Assembly: GCA_001644045.1 (NCBI GenBank)
Contig: LUUF01000074.1
Span: forward strand, 1 to 50,867
From: Methylomonas methanica
Lineage (GTDB): Bacteria > Pseudomonadota > Gammaproteobacteria > Methylococcales > Methylomonadaceae
DNA length: 50,867 nt
Direction: 5' to 3'
Made by a program: the position numbers and the translations under genes. Under the pieces are notes generated by a model that was not told the DNA's origin, ran no database searches, and saw only the letters and a program-made list of their open reading frames with translations. Of this stretch, positions 40,174 through 50,867 are shown one piece after another; position 1 is the stretch's first letter; each line of letters starts with the position of its first letter.

Positions 40174-42894
40174 GTGACAGCATCCTATTTCCATTACTGG
40201 GGCAAAGCCAAACCGGAAACCGAAGCCGGCCCGGCTTACCATTTGTTGCCTTACCATTGTTTGGATGTGGCGGCGGTGGGTTGGTTTTGGCTGGCTCCAG
40301 ATAAGCCTGTGTGTAAGCAATTGGCGGCGCAATTACACGTTGAGCCGGAATGGCTTCAATGCTGGTTTACGTTTTGCCTGGCATTGCACGATTTGGGCAA
40401 GTTTGCGCGAGCCTTTCAAGGCTTGAGAACCGATTTGTCGGATAATTTGGTTAAGCAGAATCCAAGAATGACTTATGCGGAACGGCACGACAGTCTGGGA
40501 TTCGCATTGTGGCAGGACGTTTTGGAAGCCAAATTGGCCGAACGCTATATGGCAAATGAAAACGATGGAGCCTGGATCGCAAAAATAGAATCATGGTTGG
40601 AAATTGTCACCGGTCACCATGGCATGCCACCGAATCGCTCCGGGTCTATCCGAATTAGCAATTTCTTCGAAGCCGAAGACGAACAAGCGGCGTTCACCTA
40701 TTTGCAAGACCTTGCCGATTGGTTGTTGAAAGATTTCGACTTCCAACCCTTGCTCGACAAAAATCTCTATAAACGCTTAAGGCCGTTGTCTTGGCAATTC
40801 GCCGGTATTGCGGTCTTGGCCGATTGGCAGGGTTCTAATCAACAATATTTCGAGTATTGCGATAAGCCTATGCCGCTTGCGGAGTATTGGCAAAATACTG
40901 CCTTGGTTAACGCTGACCAAGCACTTACTGGTTTGCCGGAAGCACCTAAAATCGGACAGTTCGAAGCTATTCAAAAGCTGTTTCCCTTTATTCAGCAGCC
41001 AACTCCACTACAGCAATACGCCGCTAACGAATCGCTTACCGATTTGCCGCAGCTCTTCATTTTGGAAGATGTTACTGGTGCAGGCAAAACAGAGGCAGCG
41101 CTGATTCTGACCCAGCGCCTAATGGCAAAAGGTTTGGCCGATGGTCTGTATATCGGTTTGCCAACCATGGCGACTGCCAATGCCATGTATCAACGTTTGG
41201 GCAAAGTCTATCGCCATTTTTACCAAGCAACCCAGCAGCCTTCCTTGGTGCTGGCGCATGGCGCCCGCGAGTTGTCGCAGGATTTTCGCGATTCGGTATT
41301 GCTGGCCGAGCAGGTGCAAACCGACACTGATTATCAAACCGGTCATGCTGAAAAAGACCAGGAACTCAGCGCTACCGCTTATTGCAATGCCTGGTTGGCC
41401 GACAGCCGTAAAAAAGCTTTGCTGGCCGATGTTGGTGTAGGTACTCTCGATCAGGCCTTACTGGCGGTGTTGCCGGCTCGACATCAATCCTTACGTTTGC
41501 TCGGCTTGGGGCGTAAAGTTTTGTTGGTCGACGAAGTGCATGCTTACGACAGTTACATGCAAAAGCTGTTGTCTGCTTTGTTGGAAGCTCATGCTAGGCA
41601 AGGCGGTAGCGCGATTTTGTTATCTGCGACGCTACCGCAAACCATGCGCGAGAATCTGGTCGCGGCGTTCCATCGCGGACTCGATCAAGCCCCGCCAAAT
41701 ATCGCATGTCCTGCTGCCTATCCGTTGGCTACCCATACGCCGGCTGAAACTGTCGAGCGGGGCATCAATACCCGAGCCGAAGTCAAACGTACCGTCAATG
41801 TTCAGCGATTGAATGGCGAAGACCTGGTTCTCGCCAAGGTTCGTAAAGCGGCTGAGCAGGGTCAATGCGTTTGCTGGATACGCAATACTGTCAAATCCGC
41901 GTGGCAGGCTTACCAAAACTTGTTGAACAGCGGTATCCAGGCCGAACGCTTGAGCTTGTTTCATAGCCGCTTTGCGATGATAGATCGGCAGGCTATCGAA
42001 AGCCGTACCTTGCAAATTTTCGGCGACCACTCCAACCATGAGTCCCGCAAAGGCCAAATCCTGATAGCAACTCAGGTTGTTGAACAATCGCTGGACTTGG
42101 ATTTCGATGTGCTGATCAGCGACTTGGCACCTATCGATTTACTGATCCAGCGCGCCGGCCGTTTGCGTCGGCATATCCGCGACGAGCAAGGTAATCGGAT
42201 TCGCGAGGTTGATGCCGAAGATGGGCGAGGAATGCCGGTGTTTTACCTGTACGCGCCGGAACCGGTTTTAGACGCCGATGCCAATTGGCTGGAACCCGAG
42301 CATGCCGGTACCCAGGCCGTCTATCCGCATGTTGGCCAACTTTGGTTGTCGGTGCGCTTGCTGGAAAAAGGCTGTTTCACGATGCCGGACGACGCCCGCG
42401 AGCTGATTGAAGGCGTGTATGCCGACGAAGCGCAAGCTCGAATACCCCTGGCGTTGCAAGAGGCCTCGTTCGATGCGGAGGGCAAAGCCATGGTGCAGCG
42501 GAGCATGGCCGACTTGAATGTATTGAAGCTGGAGAAAGGCTACACCTGGAAGAGTAGCGATAATTGGGATGAGGAAACCAAAATCCCGACTCGTCTTACC
42601 GAAGAAGAGAGTATTTCGGTGGCATTGGCTGTTCTGGTTGACGGCCGGCTTAAACCCTACGCCGACGTTGAGCGTTACCCCTGGGCGATGAGCACGATCA
42701 AGTTGCCGGAACGGGAATGGAAAAAAGCCAGTCGGCAAATAGCGGAAGCTTTGAATCAGCAGATAGAAGCATTGAAGAACGAACACAAAGCGTTGCGTTG
42801 GCTTGATGTTTTGCCTTTGGTCGATGGGCAAAGCCTGTATTCGGCGATGAATGGATTTGTCGGGGAAGTCCCCGCGGGTGCGGGGAACGTATGA
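40174..42894 (+). CDS. cas3: type I-E CRISPR nuclease/helicase Cas3
   Basis: The 906 residues combine an HD nuclease and a superfamily 2 helicase that Cascade recruits to degrade target DNA. The HD part has YHLLPYHCLDVAA and LALHDLGKFARAF (His72-Asp73). The helicase has Walker A VTGAGKTEAA (about residue 300), DEVHAY (about 453), ILLSATLPQT, and the arginine motif IQRAGRLRRH. It starts at GTG (40174) with AAGGA upstream. The last eight codons (VPAGAGNV) are the reverse complement of a CRISPR repeat, which is also the 3' half of the predicted antisense guide RNA. Cas3 tails in this family do not usually contain this. Confidence 0.97.
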   Translation: MTASYFHYWGKAKPETEAGPAYHLLPYHCLDVAAVGWFWLAPDKPVCKQLAAQLHVEPEWLQCWFTFCLALHDLGKFARAFQGLRTDLSDNLVKQNPRMTYAERHDSLGFALWQDVLEAKLAERYMANENDGAWIAKIESWLEIVTGHHGMPPNRSGSIRISNFFEAEDEQAAFTYLQDLADWLLKDFDFQPLLDKNLYKRLRPLSWQFAGIAVLADWQGSNQQYFEYCDKPMPLAEYWQNTALVNADQALTGLPEAPKIGQFEAIQKLFPFIQQPTPLQQYAANESLTDLPQLFILEDVTGAGKTEAALILTQRLMAKGLADGLYIGLPTMATANAMYQRLGKVYRHFYQATQQPSLVLAHGARELSQDFRDSVLLAEQVQTDTDYQTGHAEKDQELSATAYCNAWLADSRKKALLADVGVGTLDQALLAVLPARHQSLRLLGLGRKVLLVDEVHAYDSYMQKLLSALLEAHARQGGSAILLSATLPQTMRENLVAAFHRGLDQAPPNIACPAAYPLATHTPAETVERGINTRAEVKRTVNVQRLNGEDLVLAKVRKAAEQGQCVCWIRNTVKSAWQAYQNLLNSGIQAERLSLFHSRFAMIDRQAIESRTLQIFGDHSNHESRKGQILIATQVVEQSLDLDFDVLISDLAPIDLLIQRAGRLRRHIRDEQGNRIREVDAEDGRGMPVFYLYAPEPVLDADANWLEPEHAGTQAVYPHVGQLWLSVRLLEKGCFTMPDDARELIEGVYADEAQARIPLALQEASFDAEGKAMVQRSMADLNVLKLEKGYTWKSSDNWDEETKIPTRLTEEESISVALAVLVDGRLKPYADVERYPWAMSTIKLPEREWKKASRQIAEALNQQIEALKNEHKALRWLDVLPLVDGQSLYSAMNGFVGEVPAGAGNV

Positions 42895-42951
42895 GTTGCT
42901 CCACATAATGAAGTCAGCGAAGCGGTTCATCCCTAACTAGTTTAAGGAACG
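42869..42951 (-). ncRNA. CRISPR-derived guide RNA gene (creA/creR-like)
   Basis: Read on the minus strand: a degenerate repeat (42951-42923) begins CGTTCC and ends GGGATGAACCG. Its middle differs from the array repeat, but it can still fold: CCTTAA and TTAGGG form a 6-bp stem (one G-U) around ACTAG. A spacer of exactly 32 nt follows (42922-42891). Then comes a repeat whose 21 nt CGTTCCCCGCACCCGCGGGG+A are identical to the array (42889-42869). Cas6e cutting would give a 61-nt RNA with 5' handle AUGAACCG, as for normal crRNAs. The array itself lies 7.5 kb away on the other strand. The gene is antisense to the cas3 end. Confidence 0.85.
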
Positions 42952-42953
42952 AG

Positions 42954-42982
42954 CCTATAGTTTACTTGTCTTGGGCAGGTAA
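42954..42982 (-). promoter_or_regulatory. possible promoter of the guide RNA
   Basis: On the minus strand, TTACCT (42982-42977) and TATAGG (42959-42954) are separated by 17 bp. Transcription would start near 42947, inside the first bases of the degenerate repeat. The -10 has four of six consensus bases and the -35 three, so it is a modest match. Confidence 0.45.
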
Positions 42983-42992
42983 GTGAAATATT

Positions 42993-43027
42993 AAGCTTCG
43001 CTGACTCCATTATAAAAAGAATTGACG
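42993..43027 (+). promoter_or_regulatory. predicted Cascade operator: AAG PAM plus partial protospacer
   Basis: AAG at 42993-42995 is the canonical type I-E PAM. It is followed by CTTCGCTGACTcCATTAT (42996-43013), which equals guide nt 1-18 except at nt 12. Every sixth guide base is flipped out in type I-E R-loops, so the one mismatch should be silent. From nt 19 on there is no match. A full 32-bp footprint would end at 43027, exactly covering the -35 box TTGACG. Partial pairing of this type blocks transcription without enough R-loop to call Cas3. Confidence 0.82.
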
Positions 43028-43051
43028 CAACGCAATTGTATCGCCTATGAT
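43022..43051 (+). promoter_or_regulatory. sigma70-type promoter of the microprotein/hicBA/Cascade unit
   Basis: TTGACG at 43022-43027 and TATGAT at 43046-43051 with 18 bp between, both five of six to consensus. This is one of the best-looking promoters in the window. It lies 33 bp before the microprotein ATG. No terminator is visible between it and cse1, so it may also drive hicBA and the Cascade genes. Confidence 0.7.
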
Positions 43052-43083
43052 TTTCCCCATCAGAATTTTTTTGAGGTTTAGTC

Positions 43084-43194
43084 ATGGGGCAGATCAAAGA
43101 ACTTATTGATACGGTCAATGCTTTCGCGCCAAACCCGTTGGCAGTTATTTGCTTGGCGTTAGTTCTTGCGATCATCTTAGCGTTGAAAATGTGA
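43084..43194 (+). CDS. 36-residue single-helix membrane microprotein (candidate creT-like toxin)
   Basis: MGQIKELIDTVNAFAP is followed by a hydrophobic helix PLAVICLALVLAIILALKM that ends the protein. GAGG sits eight bases before the ATG, and a strong promoter lies 33 bp upstream. Small one-helix peptides of this shape are common among type I toxin-antitoxin toxins (e.g. TisB-like), which depolarise the membrane, but similar tiny membrane proteins also have benign roles. The promoter is the predicted target of the Cascade guide next door. It is followed 37 bp later by hicB. Toxicity is inferred from form and context only. Confidence 0.72.
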   Translation: MGQIKELIDTVNAFAPNPLAVICLALVLAIILALKM

Positions 43195-43231
43195 TTGCAA
43201 TATCCGATTTGGTTTTATTGGAGATCGATGT

Positions 43232-43435
43232 ATGAAATTAAAAGTGGTTATTCACGAAGCCGAAGACGGCGGTTACTGGGCGGAAGTGCCCTCAATTCCG
43301 GGTTGCGTCACCCAAGGCGATAGCTTCGACGAGTTGCTGGGCAACATTTACGAAGCGGTCGAAGGTTGTTTGTCGGTGGATATAGACGAGGCCAGCGTCG
43401 GCGATAACGGCCGTATCATGGAGATTGCCGTGTGA
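43232..43435 (+). CDS. hicB: HicB-family antitoxin
   Basis: The 67-residue partial RNase-H-like fold has VVIHEAEDGGYWAEVPSIPG and CVTQGDSFDELLGNIYEAVE, the standard HicB signature. It lacks a C-terminal DNA-binding helix domain, as in short HicBs. GGAG lies before the ATG. It overlaps hicA by four bases (GTGA). Its place between cas3 and cse1 is unusual. Confidence 0.93.
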   Translation: MKLKVVIHEAEDGGYWAEVPSIPGCVTQGDSFDELLGNIYEAVEGCLSVDIDEASVGDNGRIMEIAV

Positions 43436-43654: not shown

Positions 43655-45226
43655 ATGAATTTAATTACTGATCGCTGGCTACCTGTTATCCGTCAAAACA
43701 GCCAAAACGATTGGATTGCGCCCTGGCAAATCGCCGAAGCTGAAAAACCGGTGATCGAAATCAACGCGCCGAGGCCGGATTTTCAAGGTGCGTTGTATCA
43801 GCTCTTGATCGGTTTGCTGCAAACCGGATTCGCGCCGGACGACGAAGACCACTGGTTGGAATATTGGGAGGAAGCGCCCGACTCCGCAGAGTTGCAAGCA
43901 CGTTTTGCCGAATTGGCGCCGGCATTCGAATTGATCAGCCACGGCGGCCCGGCATTTTTGCAGGATTTCGACTTGCCGGATGGCGAAGCCAAGTCTATCG
44001 CAGCGTTATTGATCGAAGCGCCGGGCGGCAAAACGCTAAAAGACAATCTCGACCATTTCGTCAAACGCGGCTCGGCGAACCAACTATGCCCAAGCTGCGC
44101 GGCCACTGCTTTGTTCACTTTGCAAACAAATGCGCCGTCCGGCGGCGTCGGGCACCGGGTTGGATTACGCGGCGGCGGGCCATTGACGACCTTAGTAGTC
44201 CCCAAAGCCCCTCAAACGACATTGTGGCAAAAGCTTTGGTTGAATGTGCTCAATCATGAAGACCTGCAACCAGTGGAAAAACTAGATGTTTCTATCTTGC
44301 CTTGGTTGGGCAAAACCCGTACTTCCGAAAAAGGCCAGTTCACTACGCCGGCAGACGTCCATCTTTTACAGGCTTATTGGGGTATGCCGCGCCGGATTCG
44401 CTTGGCCGAAACTTCCGGGCCGGGTATTTGTGATTTGTGCGGGCGTCATGCCGAATCGCTGTTTCGCGAATACCGTACCAAAAACTACGGCACTAACTAC
44501 GACGGGCCTTGGCGCCATCCTTTGACACCGTATCGCCTTGATCCCAAGAATCCTAATGGACTGTCTTTAAAAGGCCAACAAGGCGGCTTAGGCTACCGGC
44601 ATTGGTTGGGATTGGCATTACAGGATGACAGCAACGGCGACAAAGCTGCACAAATTGTTCGCCAATACAACCAGGAACGTGGCCGCAAGCTAGCCGACCG
44701 AGGCCGAGTGGCGCTGTGGTGTTTCGGTTACGACATGGACAACATGAAGGCGCGTTGTTGGTACGAAGCGAGGTTTCCGGTGTTTTATCTGTCGGCGCAA
44801 CAACAAAACGATTTGATCGCTTGGGCGCGCGAGTTGATCGACGCGGCACGGGAAACCGTGAAGATCCTACGCAGCGAAGTCAAAGCCGCCTGGTTTCGCC
44901 GTCCGGAAGACGCCAAAGGTGATATGAGCCAAATCGACTCTCAATTTTGGCAAGCCAGCGAAGCCGAGTTTTTCCGTCTGTTGGAACGTCTGGCTACCGT
45001 AGCGGGCGACGGCGGTATGGCGCCCGCCGAAATTTATGCCGATTGGTTGAACGTGTTGGTTGCCAAAATGATTCAGGTTTTCGAAGTTGCAACCTTGACT
45101 GCCTCGCCGGAAGAACTCGATTTAAAACGCATCGTCAATGCCAAGAAATCCATGTTGAGCCGTTTTCACGGCAACAAAAGCATCAAACAATTGAAAACCC
45201 ACGCCAAAACGGAGGAGGCTGCCTAA
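43655..45226 (+). CDS. casA: Cascade large subunit Cse1 (Cas8e)
   Basis: The 523-residue protein recognises the PAM and recruits Cas3. It begins NLITDRWLPVIRQNS, the family start. Two zinc-binding pairs appear as CPSCAAT and CDLCGRH, and the four-helix bundle follows at the C terminus. Length is close to E. coli CasA (502). AAGGAGTAGGGA before the ATG is a strong ribosome site. Its stop is directly followed by the cse2 ATG. Confidence 0.96.
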   Translation: MNLITDRWLPVIRQNSQNDWIAPWQIAEAEKPVIEINAPRPDFQGALYQLLIGLLQTGFAPDDEDHWLEYWEEAPDSAELQARFAELAPAFELISHGGPAFLQDFDLPDGEAKSIAALLIEAPGGKTLKDNLDHFVKRGSANQLCPSCAATALFTLQTNAPSGGVGHRVGLRGGGPLTTLVVPKAPQTTLWQKLWLNVLNHEDLQPVEKLDVSILPWLGKTRTSEKGQFTTPADVHLLQAYWGMPRRIRLAETSGPGICDLCGRHAESLFREYRTKNYGTNYDGPWRHPLTPYRLDPKNPNGLSLKGQQGGLGYRHWLGLALQDDSNGDKAAQIVRQYNQERGRKLADRGRVALWCFGYDMDNMKARCWYEARFPVFYLSAQQQNDLIAWARELIDAARETVKILRSEVKAAWFRRPEDAKGDMSQIDSQFWQASEAEFFRLLERLATVAGDGGMAPAEIYADWLNVLVAKMIQVFEVATLTASPEELDLKRIVNAKKSMLSRFHGNKSIKQLKTHAKTEEAA

Positions 45227-45817
45227 ATGAGCGAAAACTATTTTTTGATGCCGGAAGAGCTGAAGGCTTTGCTGGCATGGCATCGCTGGTTGAACGGCGA
45301 CGACGGCGACCGGGGCGGCAATCGCGGCGATCGCGCCCGTCTACGCCGCGCCGAAATCCCGGAAGACATTTTGCTAACCGACGCCTTTTTTCATTTCTTA
45401 CGGCAAATGCCGGACGACTTTCCGCAAAAAATTTATGCCGAACAGCGCTTGCCGGTCGCGGCGACGATTGCCGGCTTGCTGGCGCATGTCGAAGTCAACG
45501 ACGTCAGCGCCCGGTTTGCGACGCAACTGGGCTCACCCAAAGACAAAGCGAAGCCGCCTATGAGCGAATTACGCTTTCAGCAATTGCAGAAAAGCCCGAC
45601 CGTCGAAGATTTCTACCGGCGCATGCTGCGCGCGATTCGTTTGCTCGGCAAAACCGCCAATGTCGTATCGCTCACCAACGACATTATTCATTGGCACAAA
45701 GAATTCAATCAACCGTTGGGTCGGCATCTCGATGTCAGCAAACGCCTGTCCGTGCGCTGGGCCACCGACTATTTCACCGCCTTACCCAAAATTAATTTCA
45801 AGGAGAGACATTCATGA
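45227..45817 (+). CDS. casB: Cascade small subunit Cse2 (Cas11e)
   Basis: The 196-residue all-helical protein forms the belly dimer that supports the displaced DNA strand. The family pattern LLAWHRWLNG near the start and a basic surface (RGDRARLRRAEIP) are present; LLAHVEVND and FQQLQKSPTVEDFYRRMLRA are typical. It is somewhat longer than E. coli CasB. Start abuts cse1; end overlaps cas7e by four bases. Confidence 0.94.
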   Translation: MSENYFLMPEELKALLAWHRWLNGDDGDRGGNRGDRARLRRAEIPEDILLTDAFFHFLRQMPDDFPQKIYAEQRLPVAATIAGLLAHVEVNDVSARFATQLGSPKDKAKPPMSELRFQQLQKSPTVEDFYRRMLRAIRLLGKTANVVSLTNDIIHWHKEFNQPLGRHLDVSKRLSVRWATDYFTALPKINFKERHS

Positions 45818-46881
45818 GCCGTTTCATTCAACTGCATTTGCTGACCGCTTATCCGCCCGCTAACCTGAACCGTGACGATCAAGGCAGTCCGAAAACCGCG
45901 AAGATGGGCGGCTATGACCGTTTACGGGTTTCGTCGCAGTGTCTGAAAAGAACCTGGAGAACTTCTGATTTGTTTCAAGCGGCGGTCGGCGACCATTTGG
46001 GTACACGCACCAAATTGCTCGGTTTGGAGATATACAACAAACTGCTGGGAGGCGGCGTTAAAGAAAAGGACGCCAAGGAATGGACCAAGGCAATTGCCGG
46101 AATATTTGGCGCGTTGAAAAAAGCCGATAAAAACGATCCGTTAGCCGAATTGGAAATCGAGCAGTTGGTGCACGTCAGCCCGGCTGAACGGGTGGCGCTG
46201 GATGCGTTGATCGCTAAACTGGTTGCCGAACAACGGGCGCCGGAAAAAGACGAGTTGAATCTGCTGCGCGTCAGCGAGCAAGCGGTGGACATTGCCTTGT
46301 TCGGCCGCATGTTGGCATCCAGCCCGGCTTTCAACATCGAGGCCGCCTGCCAAGTGGCGCACGCCATCAGCGTACATCCGGTGGTTATCGAAGATGATTA
46401 TTTCACCGCTGTCGATGATTTGAACAACGGCCTGGACGACATGGGCGCCGCCCACATCGGCGAAACTCGTTTCGCCGCCGGTTTGTTTTATGCCTACATT
46501 TGCATCAATCGCGAGTTGCTGATCAAAAACCTGGATGGTAATGTCGATCTTGCCAATCGAGCGATTCGTGCCTTGACCGAAGCCGCCGTCAAAGTCGCGC
46601 CGGAAGGCAAGCAAAACAGCTTCGCTTCTCGGGCTTATGCGTCCTTCGTGCTGGCGGAAAAAGGCGATCAGCAGCCGCGTTCTTTGTCAGTGGCTTATCT
46701 AAAACCCGTCGGCCGCGAAGCTGACGATTTTGCCGTTCAGGCCATCGCTGCGTTGAAAGAGCAGAGCAGCAGCTTTGACGAAGTTTACTGCGCTTGCGCG
46801 GACAGTCGGTACGAGTTAAATGCCTTGCCGTCGCAACGCCAAGGCACACTGGCCGGATTACTCGACTTCGTCGGCCAATAG
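45814..46881 (+). CDS. casC: Cascade backbone subunit Cas7e
   Basis: The 355-residue RRM-fold protein binds the guide in six copies and flips out every sixth base. The opening RFIQLHLLTAYPPANLNRDD and RLRVSSQCLKRTWR are typical of Cas7e/Cse4, as is the later DNLNNGLDDMGAAHIGE-like thumb region (residues about 200-220). AAGGAGAGACATTC precedes the ATG. It overlaps cse2. Confidence 0.96.
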   Translation: MSRFIQLHLLTAYPPANLNRDDQGSPKTAKMGGYDRLRVSSQCLKRTWRTSDLFQAAVGDHLGTRTKLLGLEIYNKLLGGGVKEKDAKEWTKAIAGIFGALKKADKNDPLAELEIEQLVHVSPAERVALDALIAKLVAEQRAPEKDELNLLRVSEQAVDIALFGRMLASSPAFNIEAACQVAHAISVHPVVIEDDYFTAVDDLNNGLDDMGAAHIGETRFAAGLFYAYICINRELLIKNLDGNVDLANRAIRALTEAAVKVAPEGKQNSFASRAYASFVLAEKGDQQPRSLSVAYLKPVGREADDFAVQAIAALKEQSSSFDEVYCACADSRYELNALPSQRQGTLAGLLDFVGQ

Positions 46882-46890
46882 GAGCCGGTC

Positions 46891-47673
46891 ATGGACCTAT
46901 TGTTATTCCGTTTATACGGGCCGTTGGCGAGTTGGGGCGAAATCGCCGTCGGCGAAAGCCGGCATAGCGCCAACTATCCCAGCAAATCGGCAATATTGGG
47001 TTTGGTCGGCGCCGCTCTGGGCATAGAGCGAAGCGACGAAGCGCAACAAGCCGGTTTGCAGCAGGGTTACCAAGTGGCCGTGGAAGTGTTCAGTACCGGT
47101 CAATTGCTGCGCGATTACCATACCGCGCAAGTGCCTGATTCGGCCGGCAAGTTTGTTTACCGCACCCGCCGCGACGAAGTGGTATTGGGTAAGGAACGCC
47201 TGGGCACGATTTTATCCACCCGCGAATACCGTAGCGATGCCCTGGCCGTCGTCGCCTTGCGCGCTTTACCGGAGGCTCCATTTTGCTTGGCGCAAATCGA
47301 AGAAAAGCTGCGCAAGCCGGTGTTTCATCTGTATTTGGGGCGTAAGTCCTGCCCGTTGGCGGCGCCGTTGAATCCGCAGTTATTGACGGATCAAACCGAT
47401 GTTTTGTCGGCCTTCAAAGCCTATCTACATAAACCGCTGTTACCGCGAAAACAGGCGGATGCCGAAGCGGGTCAGCCTGTTCAGCAAGACGCTTATTGGC
47501 TGAATGCTGGCGGCGAACGCCATTATTACTGGGAAGGTTCGACCGAGGATTTTGCTAAAGGCTTCGATTTACAGCGCAGGCAAACCCGCGTCCGCCACGA
47601 CCAACCCTTGTCGCGCAAACGCTGGCAGTTCACGCCGCGCCAAGAGCATTATTTTTATCAGGGAGGCGAGTGA
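46891..47673 (+). CDS. casD: Cascade subunit Cas5e
   Basis: The 260-residue protein caps the 5' handle of the crRNA. It begins MDLLLFRLYGPLASWGE and has ESRHSANYPSKSAILGLVGA and a C-terminal VRHDQPLSRKRWQFTPR-type end. The stop overlaps the cas6e ATG as TGATG. Confidence 0.95.
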   Translation: MDLLLFRLYGPLASWGEIAVGESRHSANYPSKSAILGLVGAALGIERSDEAQQAGLQQGYQVAVEVFSTGQLLRDYHTAQVPDSAGKFVYRTRRDEVVLGKERLGTILSTREYRSDALAVVALRALPEAPFCLAQIEEKLRKPVFHLYLGRKSCPLAAPLNPQLLTDQTDVLSAFKAYLHKPLLPRKQADAEAGQPVQQDAYWLNAGGERHYYWEGSTEDFAKGFDLQRRQTRVRHDQPLSRKRWQFTPRQEHYFYQGGE

Positions 47674-48560
47674 TGTATTTCTCCAGGGTCAGGATACGGC
47701 CGGATATTTACAAATCCTCGAAGTTGGCGAGAGTGTTGGAAGGCAATGTTTACGGTTGCCATCAATTATTGTGGGATTTGTTCCCGGCCCAGGACAAACG
47801 TACCTTTCTCTACCGCGAGGAAATTGCCCGCGAGCAGCTGGGGGCATCGCCGGCAGTACGCGGAGAACCGGTGTACTACATCGTTTCGCAAACCAAACCG
47901 ATTGAGGTCGAAGGTTCTTTGTTTAAGGTCGAGAGTAAAGAATATGACCCTCAGTTGTCCGAAGGCCAGTGCCTGCAATTTGATTGCCGGGTCAATCCGG
48001 TTGTCAGCCGGTTGGGCAAAAAGCACGACTTGGTGATGGATGCGCAGTTGCAGTTTTTAACGTCGTTGGTCAAATCGCTGGGTCTGGAGAATACCTTACC
48101 CGCCAAAACGGATAAAGGCGTTTACAAAAAATTGTTGCTGGAGAAGGGCGGAGCAGCGCTGGAGACTGAACTGGCCGAATTGCTGAGCGCGGACCGTCAC
48201 TACGCTGAGCGTTTAGGACTAATTTCCGGTTTAGCAGATAAACTGGAATGGGCGATAAAAGCCCGCATCGATCAGGCTTTGGCAAATTGGATGCTCAAGC
48301 AAGGCGTGCGTTGTGGATTTGAGTTATTGGCCGGCGACGACGGTTTACCGAAACTGCAAAACAGTGCCTACGCCTGGCACGGCTTGCAGCAAAAAGCCGC
48401 CAAGAAAAGCGAAAAATCCGGTTTCAGCTCCATCGATTTCACCGGCGAATTGCAAATTACCGACCCCGAGAAATTTCGTCAAACCCTGTTTTCCGGCCTG
48501 GGGCGGGCCAAGGCTTTCGGTTGCGGCCTGCTGATGGTAAGACGACCGGGCAATGGGTAG
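47673..48560 (+). CDS. casE: crRNA-processing endoribonuclease Cas6e
   Basis: The 295-residue RAMP protein cuts at the base of the repeat stem. The catalytic His is His30 in YGCHQLLWDLFP, and the G-rich loop is GLGRAKAFGCGLLMVRR at the C terminus. Most Cas6e proteins have about 200-220 residues. Here an extra helical segment of about 75 residues (roughly 125-200, charged, with LEKGGAALETELAELLSA) lies between the two RRM halves. The ATG at 47673 overlaps cas5e. Confidence 0.93.
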   Translation: MYFSRVRIRPDIYKSSKLARVLEGNVYGCHQLLWDLFPAQDKRTFLYREEIAREQLGASPAVRGEPVYYIVSQTKPIEVEGSLFKVESKEYDPQLSEGQCLQFDCRVNPVVSRLGKKHDLVMDAQLQFLTSLVKSLGLENTLPAKTDKGVYKKLLLEKGGAALETELAELLSADRHYAERLGLISGLADKLEWAIKARIDQALANWMLKQGVRCGFELLAGDDGLPKLQNSAYAWHGLQQKAAKKSEKSGFSSIDFTGELQITDPEKFRQTLFSGLGRAKAFGCGLLMVRRPGNG

Positions 48561-49002: not shown

Positions 49003-50218
<1,216 letters not shown>

Positions 50219-50364: not shown

Positions 50365-50867
50365 GCGTTCCCCGCACCCGCGGGGATGAACCGCCTTTCG
50401 ACGTATCCAGCGCTTCTAGCACCACGCGTTCCCCGCACCCGCGGGGATGAACCGGCCGTGCAAACAGCACTCGATTTAATCAACATGCGTTCCCCGCACC
50501 CGCGGGGATGAACCGCAATCAAACCCAGACCTTACGGATGAAGAGCTGCGTTCCCCGCACCCGCGGGGATGAACCGTATTCTGTCAGTGTGCCAAATTGG
50601 ACTGGCCCGCGTTCCCCGCACCCGCGGGGATGAACCGCGCACATGGGTACAAATTTATTTCAGACGCGCGCGTTCCCCGCACCCGCGGGGATGAACCGCA
50701 TCGGTTGTTGCCAGGTTTCGATCAAAGCTGGCGTTCCCCGCACCCGCGGGGATGAACCGAGAACGTGCCGTAGTTGGTCGTATCCTCGCCTGCGTTCCCC
50801 GCACCCGCGGGGATGAACCGTCGTGGCAGTAAATCTCGCCATCCAGGGTTTCGCGTTCCCCGCACCC
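50365..50867 (+). CRISPR. type I-E CRISPR array (runs off the window)
   Basis: The 29-bp repeats begin GCGTTCCCCGCACCCGC and end GGGGATGAACCG. They start at 50365, 50426, 50487, 50548, 50609, 50670, 50731, 50792 and 50853; the ninth is cut after 15 bp. All eight spacers are 32 bp and all differ. All eight complete repeats look identical. The stem is CCCCGC/GCGGGG with loop ACCC, and the handle is ATGAACCG. No spacer has an obvious match elsewhere in the window by eye. Confidence 0.99.

Follow-up and report, generated by a model that had tools for sequence, protein, structure and literature searches.

The 50,867-nucleotide stretch of Methylomonas methanica DNA analyzed here (contig LUUF01000074.1; hereafter the window), part of a 5.02-Mb genome, carries a type I-E CRISPR (clustered regularly interspaced short palindromic repeats) locus whose cas3-cse1 gap holds a short guide RNA element, a partial match to that guide, a promoter-like sequence and a gene for a 36-aa peptide. 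We consider it probable that one operator, recognized by guide-loaded Cascade (CRISPR-associated complex for antiviral defense), both sets the supply of Cascade, as in CreR systems, and restrains a likely toxic peptide, as in CreTA addiction modules. The parts of this proposal differ in strength. Cascade-guided repression at the operator is very probable, and Cascade limiting its own supply by this route is to be expected with good confidence. Toxicity of the peptide is somewhat favored, while a working role in the module for the neighboring hicBA genes is a tentative suggestion that we lean slightly against. What can be read directly from the DNA is the guide with its match behind AAG, the order of the genes, hexamers resembling a promoter, and the way guide and operator co-vary.

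The guide element occupies 42869-42951 on the minus strand, where re-reading the sequence gives a degenerate repeat (psiR1) and, beyond a 32-nt spacer, another repeat (psiR2). An earlier reading of the window made from its letters only (the sequence-only reading) had described this repeat-spacer-repeat between cas3 and cse1, with a 32-nt spacer, an intact handle and an intact 3′ stem, and the description is correct; the upstream repeat, of which it had named the handle, retains more than that, since a 6-bp stem is also present. It had further matched spacer nt 1-18 to 42996-43013 with one mismatch at nt 12, behind AAG and with a footprint ending on a -35 box. We find the same: behind the AAG protospacer-adjacent motif (PAM) lies the target CTTCGCTGACTCCATTAT (42996-43013, plus strand), to which spacer nt 1-18 pair throughout save nt 12, and the 32-bp footprint reaches 43027, the final base of TTGACG (43022-43027). 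With the pattern AAGCTTCGNTGACTNCATTA and up to three mismatches allowed, a genome-wide search returned three sites: the target (0 mismatches), the guide's own sequence (2 mismatches, AAG absent) and a site behind AGG (3 mismatches). Within that limit the genome has no second site flanked by AAG. The promoter hexamers are preserved in the two closest relatives. A CRISPR RNA (crRNA) of 61 nt is predicted from 42930-42870 on the minus strand.

Support for this reading also comes from related genomes. In a DNA search, 15 of 101 genomes gave matches, which spanned nearly the whole query in two besides the window's own and shorter stretches in the others. Two partly overlapping sets of loci, with several genomes in both, were collected through Cse1: an order set (77 of 301 genomes matched, best 30 loci kept, 29 scored after G139, cut by a contig end, was left out) and a named set (best 80 of 348 Cse1 relatives kept) that includes Gammaproteobacteria and Desulfobacterales. 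R-loops of type I-E systems leave every sixth base unpaired. In a blind test, guides were chosen by their handle and downstream repeat only, the best local match was taken with no demand for a PAM or a phase, and candidates with at most five mismatches in 17 nt were retained, a cut that was fixed after the list had been seen. This retained 21 of 33 distinct candidate spacers; the 12 dropped, with at least six mismatches, lie 434-1406 bp before cse1 and were taken as chance regular-expression matches, most likely in cas3. Spacers differ between genera. AAG precedes 20 of the 21 retained matches and AAA the other, and mismatches collect at nt 6 (15 guides) and nt 12 (14), with one each at nt 8, 9 and 11, none at the remaining positions of nt 1-14, and 2, 7 and 11 at nt 15, 16 and 17. 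Counted by cell, 29 of 42 at nt 6 and 12 are mismatched versus 3 of the 252 at the other positions up to nt 14 (p 1e-26, a value inflated by shared descent). Judged from these comparisons, guide and target pair as far as about nt 15-18, with nt 6 and 12 left out. Eleven other guides, from G025 and from a scan that ignores nt 6, 12 and 18, were excluded when mismatches were counted, since that scan favors the 6-nt phase; they enter the stem, promoter and guide-promoter counts given below.

When the retained guides were compared with foreign loci, 420 comparisons in all, at most three mismatches of 17 were reached in 5, of which two set G000 and G034 against each other, at most four in 19 and at most five in 103; at home the figures were 17/21 (17 of the 33 candidates), 20/21 and 21/21. 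The five-mismatch cut alone would not discriminate, given the foreign rate of 103/420. The sequence-only reading had proposed a comparison of spacer and operator in related genomes, where independent drift would speak against it. Both do change, yet they still pair behind AAG and still tolerate mismatches at nt 6 and 12, so that no independent drift is seen and its CreTA/CreR-like interpretation gains support from guides and operators that co-vary.

The upstream repeat also appears to be maintained as a structure. Its stem, directly before the handle, has six of six pairs in 24 of 32 guides, five in 4 and fewer in 4, with stem sequences as different as CCTTAA/TTAGGG, CCCAAT/ATTGGG and CTCCGC/GCGGAG, and none of 2000 arm swaps attained the observed pairing sum. 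The comparison indicates that the psiR1 hairpin is preserved through compensatory change in relatives. The 97-nt guide stretch of the window has a predicted fold of -34.6 kcal/mol, versus -22.2 (standard deviation 3.2) for shuffles. A second hairpin lies within the spacer, where seed nt 1-9 are complementary to nt 18-28, a feature preserved though seeds differ; examples from the spacer at 42891-42922 and from loci L055, L062 and L118 are GCTTC/GAAGC, ATTCTATC/GATAGAAT and TAGTGTT/AACACTA. In a permutation test, 0 of 5000 sets attained the observed sum (n=21), and 6 of 5000 did so once the CTTC-seed set was removed (n=15). By fold energy alone, 9 of 21 spacers reach p ≤0.05 against mononucleotide shuffles, the window's spacer standing at p 0.23. 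Read by eye, the second arm of the spacer hairpin does not amount to a second target with a consistent PAM, and an Rfam search of 42700-43300 gave no family at E 0.1 or better.

A candidate promoter for the guide lies on the far side of the operator from the Cascade promoter, 7 nt before psiR1. Across the 32 guides, promoter-like elements 2-10 nt before psiR1, judged by consensus score alone, score at least 8 in 18, 7 in 8 and lower in 3, with none in 3. Five of the 32 targets lie on the plus strand (the window, G025, G034, G076 and L112); the other 27 are minus-strand targets. In three Methylomonas loci with plus-strand targets, TTGAC(A/G)-18-TATGAT starts 2-8 bp past nt 18; in 14 of the 27 with minus-strand targets, a promoter scoring at least 8 has its -35 starting 1-2 bp past the PAM-side edge, which makes PAM and -35 overlap (random positions gave a mean of 0.69 and a maximum of 5). 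From these positions we infer that Cascade is placed so as to exclude RNA polymerase from the -35. In L113, L117 and L124 the target seems to overlap the guide's own candidate -35 (TTGACA/ATGACA), and these guides may limit themselves too.

In the order set, a guide with a nearby match was found in 17 of 29 loci, the PAM being AAA in G212. A scan of the named set for spacer-target pairs with AAG, every sixth nucleotide left free, gave a guide in 26 of 80 loci; the addition of L091, L123 and L129 brings the guide layout to 29 of 80 cas3-cse1 gaps, with differing spacer and target sequences. L123 and L129 are the loci of G280 and G287, and L091, an 11-nt match, was examined on account of its peptide.

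The peptide gene is the first frame past the operator in the window. Its product can be aligned with others from Methylomonas to Saccharophagus, and among seven close relatives dN (nonsynonymous divergence) is 0.04-0.25 versus dS (synonymous divergence) from 0.17 to saturated, which points to strong purifying selection. No Pfam family matched above cut-off (best OppC_N, 16.7 bits versus 23.9), nor did any family in NCBIfam or PADLOC. Peptide and guide go together. With three of the 80 named loci too short upstream for scoring, the remaining 77 divide into 15 with both, 14 with guide only, 2 with peptide only and 46 with neither (Fisher 2e-6, which ignores relatedness), and the order set (n=29) into 12, 5, 0 and 12 (1e-4), the peptide model having been built from many of the loci later scored. 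Repeat-like stretches can be seen by eye in both peptide-only loci, L082 and L089. A peptide search of 151 family genomes gave six strong matches (the window's own and five others), all at a cas3-cse1 gap with a guide, and three weak ones (E 0.002-0.007), of unexamined context; in 369 class genomes the only strong match was in the window's own genome, with four weak (E 3e-4 to 9e-4), context likewise unexamined. Other guide loci carry different short open reading frames (ORFs) at this place, hydrophobic in G076, L090 and L115 and not hydrophobic in G127, and G087, G212 and L105 keep guide and operator 60, 66 and 39 bp before cse1 with no peptide. By gene order, then, relatives divide into some without room for a peptide (CreR-like) and many with one (CreTA-like).

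The mechanism that we propose runs as follows. The guide RNA would be transcribed from the minus-strand element, cut by Cas6e and loaded into type I-E Cascade, which would bind 42993-43027 and occlude the predicted promoter at its -35 box. Since pairing stops at nt 18, repression would proceed without attack by Cas3. The repressed transcript should carry the peptide, hicB-hicA and, likely, the Cascade genes together, as gaps of 37 bp (peptide to hicB) and 16 bp (hicA to cse1) and a 4-bp hicB-hicA overlap suggest co-transcription. Cascade would thereby limit its own synthesis, and where it is lost or blocked, the peptide, here with HicBA, would be made; the peptide being likely toxic, the locus would therefore also act as an addiction module. 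Brief loss of Cascade would raise Cascade synthesis and repair itself, and lasting loss would let the peptide accumulate. Across loci, guide, operator and Cascade are the constant partners, the peptide is frequent and hicBA is occasional. That constancy leads us to favor self-limitation by Cascade as the base function, joined in many lineages by a likely toxic peptide that shares the operator.

Several observations weigh against this proposal. That the RNA is made, that Cascade takes it up and that the promoter is repressed are all predictions from sequence. Relatedness remains in all of the cross-locus tests, whose statistics ignore kinship. The downstream repeat lacks a handle, and in the predicted fold part of the handle of psiR1 is base-paired. 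On their own, the promoter hexamers occur at chance frequency (1 found, 0.8 expected); 13 of the 27 minus-strand targets have no promoter scoring at least 8 at the PAM edge, their best hexamers being elsewhere or weak, and G076 and L105 show no clear promoter. No guide was found in 12 of the 29 order loci, five of which (G006, G160, G026, G262 and G192) have merely 23-65 bp from the cas3 match to cse1. The guide of L091 was found through its peptide, and if that locus is not counted as having a guide the 77 loci become 14, 14, 3 and 46. Finally, no more than four order-set guide loci have hicBA in the gap (the window, G025, G034 and G227), and in G144 and G162 hicBA occurs with neither guide nor peptide.

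A more elaborate version of the mechanism is possible, though we would not bet on it: a self-correcting addiction switch in which a single operator sits between divergent guide and Cascade promoters and Cascade is co-transcribed with a membrane suicide peptide, such that a brief shortage is repaired and lasting loss, by mutation or anti-CRISPR, arrests the cell. A hairpin-folded seed would make the guide a weak competitor and, for that reason, a sensor of crRNA load. Among the rivals, it is conceivable, if rather unlikely, that the guide tunes Cascade supply only, in which case the peptide would be an innocuous leader or an accessory at the membrane, with HicBA as a passenger. The three loci that lack the peptide and keep guide and operator fit this, as do the constancy of the Cascade genes and the occurrence of hicBA without a guide; the peptide, however, is under strong purifying selection, accompanies the guide, and holds the position of the proven toxin of Citrobacter rodentium (PMC12055562). 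We think it improbable that restraint by the guide is confined to the peptide (and HicBA) while Cascade comes mainly from another promoter. The peptide is indeed the first gene past the operator in 12 of 17 order-set guide loci, and the C. rodentium module in the same gap is an addiction toxin (PMC12055562), but peptide, hicB, hicA and cse1 are nearly contiguous here and the loci lacking the peptide retain guide and operator directly before cse1. Still less probable is a reading in which repression matters for the HicBA toxin-antitoxin and the peptide is incidental: both proteins exceed their Pfam cut-offs downstream of the operator, but 8 of 12 guide-plus-peptide order loci have no intact hicBA in the gap, hicBA is present without a guide in two loci, and HicA and HicB would rise jointly. 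That the element is a functionless, decayed mini-array with a chance match, as its two degenerate repeats and chance-level hexamers might suggest, is hardly credible, since AAG and the 6/12 phase persist across genera while the sequence turns over, the psiR1 stem shows compensatory changes, and cross-locus and permutation controls disfavor both chance and relic.

Modules of this kind are already in print, as type I-E CreTA, type I-E CreR and also CrePA. The sequence-only reading had presented such a system in a type I-E locus with a new guide and target; the reading as a system stands, and a type I-E module has already been published for C. rodentium (PMC12055562). There, in 2025, a 96-bp toxin ORF in the cas3/casA gap was described that must be translated and is held down by Cascade, indicating that a short translated ORF in that gap can arrest growth (PMC12055562). 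Our locus resembles it in the gap used, a crRNA-like gene upstream on the opposite strand, a partial promoter match and a short ORF, and its dependence on Cascade but not Cas3 is what we predict here (PMC12055562). The C. rodentium module differs in its ATG PAM and overlap with an UP element (PMC12055562), where we see AAG and a -35, and in that hicBA follows the module here. As in CreTA generally, a crRNA-like gene with two degenerate repeats lies beside cas genes, and a partial match with a PAM lies at the promoter, itself predicted, of the putatively repressed gene. Haloarchaeal CreTA also has two divergent degenerate repeats flanking a pseudo-spacer and a partial promoter match, but its CreT is a tRNA-sequestering RNA rather than a conserved peptide (PMC8501985). 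For its psiR, PMC9458426 reports that no hairpin is conserved, whereas the psiR1 stem is conserved here. Type I-E is named among CreR users (PMC13131331), and CreR is a crRNA-like RNA partly matching the promoter of its own Cascade genes (PMC12737573, PMC13131331), which our guide would resemble if the predicted promoter also serves cse1. CreR is generally uncoupled from a toxin gene (PMC12737573), whereas here hicA and the candidate peptide, with hicB, intervene between operator and cse1, the operator standing directly before cse1 in G087, G212 and L105. In CrePA, a protein product is likewise kept off by a Cascade-bound crRNA-like RNA, but CreP typically has a KilA-N domain (PMC12737573), which family searches of the locus proteins did not find. 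With HicAB type II toxin-antitoxins our locus shares both families, each above its curated cut-off, and here they are placed under a putative Cascade operator inside a cas locus. Among the literature matches listed, no title or abstract opening mentioned a Methylomonas module or a Cascade-controlled HicBA.

If the proposal is true, one operator unites self-limitation of Cascade with addiction to CRISPR, functions that had been described separately, effector supply is held in check and the cell likely depends on keeping its CRISPR system. The loci also form a natural data set on guide and target co-evolution, where comparison by itself reveals the 6-nt phase of the Cascade R-loop, and they yield an unannotated peptide family whose toxicity is directly testable.

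The type I-E locus comprises cas3, a 760-bp gap, cse1-cse2-cas7-cas5-cas6e, cas1, cas2 and a CRISPR array (Table 1), and profile searches found the gene set complete (cas3, cse1, cse2, cas7e, cas5e, cas6e, cas1 and cas2). On the plus strand the gap reads operator, predicted promoter, peptide gene, hicB, hicA, then cse1. The peptide, the hicBA pair, the psiR1 hairpin and the candidate guide promoter, on which the sequence-only reading was silent, are all included in the table.

Table 1. Features of the type I-E locus and its cas3-cse1 gap, in window coordinates
Feature	Position	Strand	Remarks
cas3	40174..42894	+	family profile match
psiR2, downstream repeat ACGTTCCCCGCACCCGCGGGGA	42890-42869	-	stem kept but handle missing; runs into the last cas3 codons
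Guide spacer CTTCGCTGACTTCATTATGTGGAGCAACTCAT, 32 nt	42922-42891	-	sequence re-read
psiR1 handle ATGAACCG	42930-42923	-	intact
psiR1, degenerate upstream repeat	42951-42923	-	CGTTCCTTAAACTAGTTAGGGATGAACCG; 6-bp stem of its own (CCTTAA/TTAGGG), handle preserved
Candidate guide promoter: -35 TTCACT (42987-42982), 17 bp, -10 TAAACT (42964-42959)	42959..42987	-	consensus match alone
Operator: AAG PAM 42993-42995 and 32-bp protospacer 42996-43027	42993..43027	+	paired region nt 1-18 = 42996-43013
Predicted promoter TTGACG-18-TATGAT (-10 at 43046-43051) of peptide-hicBA-Cascade genes	43022..43051	+	hexamer match
36-aa predicted membrane peptide, unannotated, candidate toxin	43084..43194	+	purifying selection
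hicB, 67 aa	43232..43435	+	HicB_lk_antitox 31.8 bits, cut-off 27
hicA, 68 aa	43432..43638	+	HicA_toxin 51.7 bits, cut-off 27
Cascade genes cse1, cse2, cas7, cas5, cas6e	43655..48560	+	family profile match
cas1 and cas2	49003..50218	+	family profile match
CRISPR array, 8 repeats, 61-bp period	50365..50820	+	near contig end

The last of the eight array repeats ends 47 bp before the end of the contig, and 41 further repeat matches stand at the end of another contig of the same genome. The HicB match covers only positions 3-52 of the 123 of its model; given this partial match and its 67 aa, HicB may lack the DNA-binding part. In the gap of L034 (G183), the peptide is followed by the beginning of a hicB-like frame, and among the frames listed there no hicB or hicA frame of at least 25 aa appears. 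The gap of L041/L131 (G050) retains a repeat beside a peptide frame that looks disrupted, which suggests joint decay of peptide and guide. A short arginine-rich frame, which may overlap the start of cse1, follows the target in L110, L113, L117 and L124 and is possibly another class of repressed peptide. By eye, a second guide class has spacers of about 20 nt rather than 32 (L090, L105, L110, L112, L113, L115, L117, L124 and L127), and these may go with a Cascade of fewer Cas7 subunits. In the window, psiR2 provides the final cas3 codons (42869-42894, stop at 42892-42894), and guide and cas3 overlap head to head.

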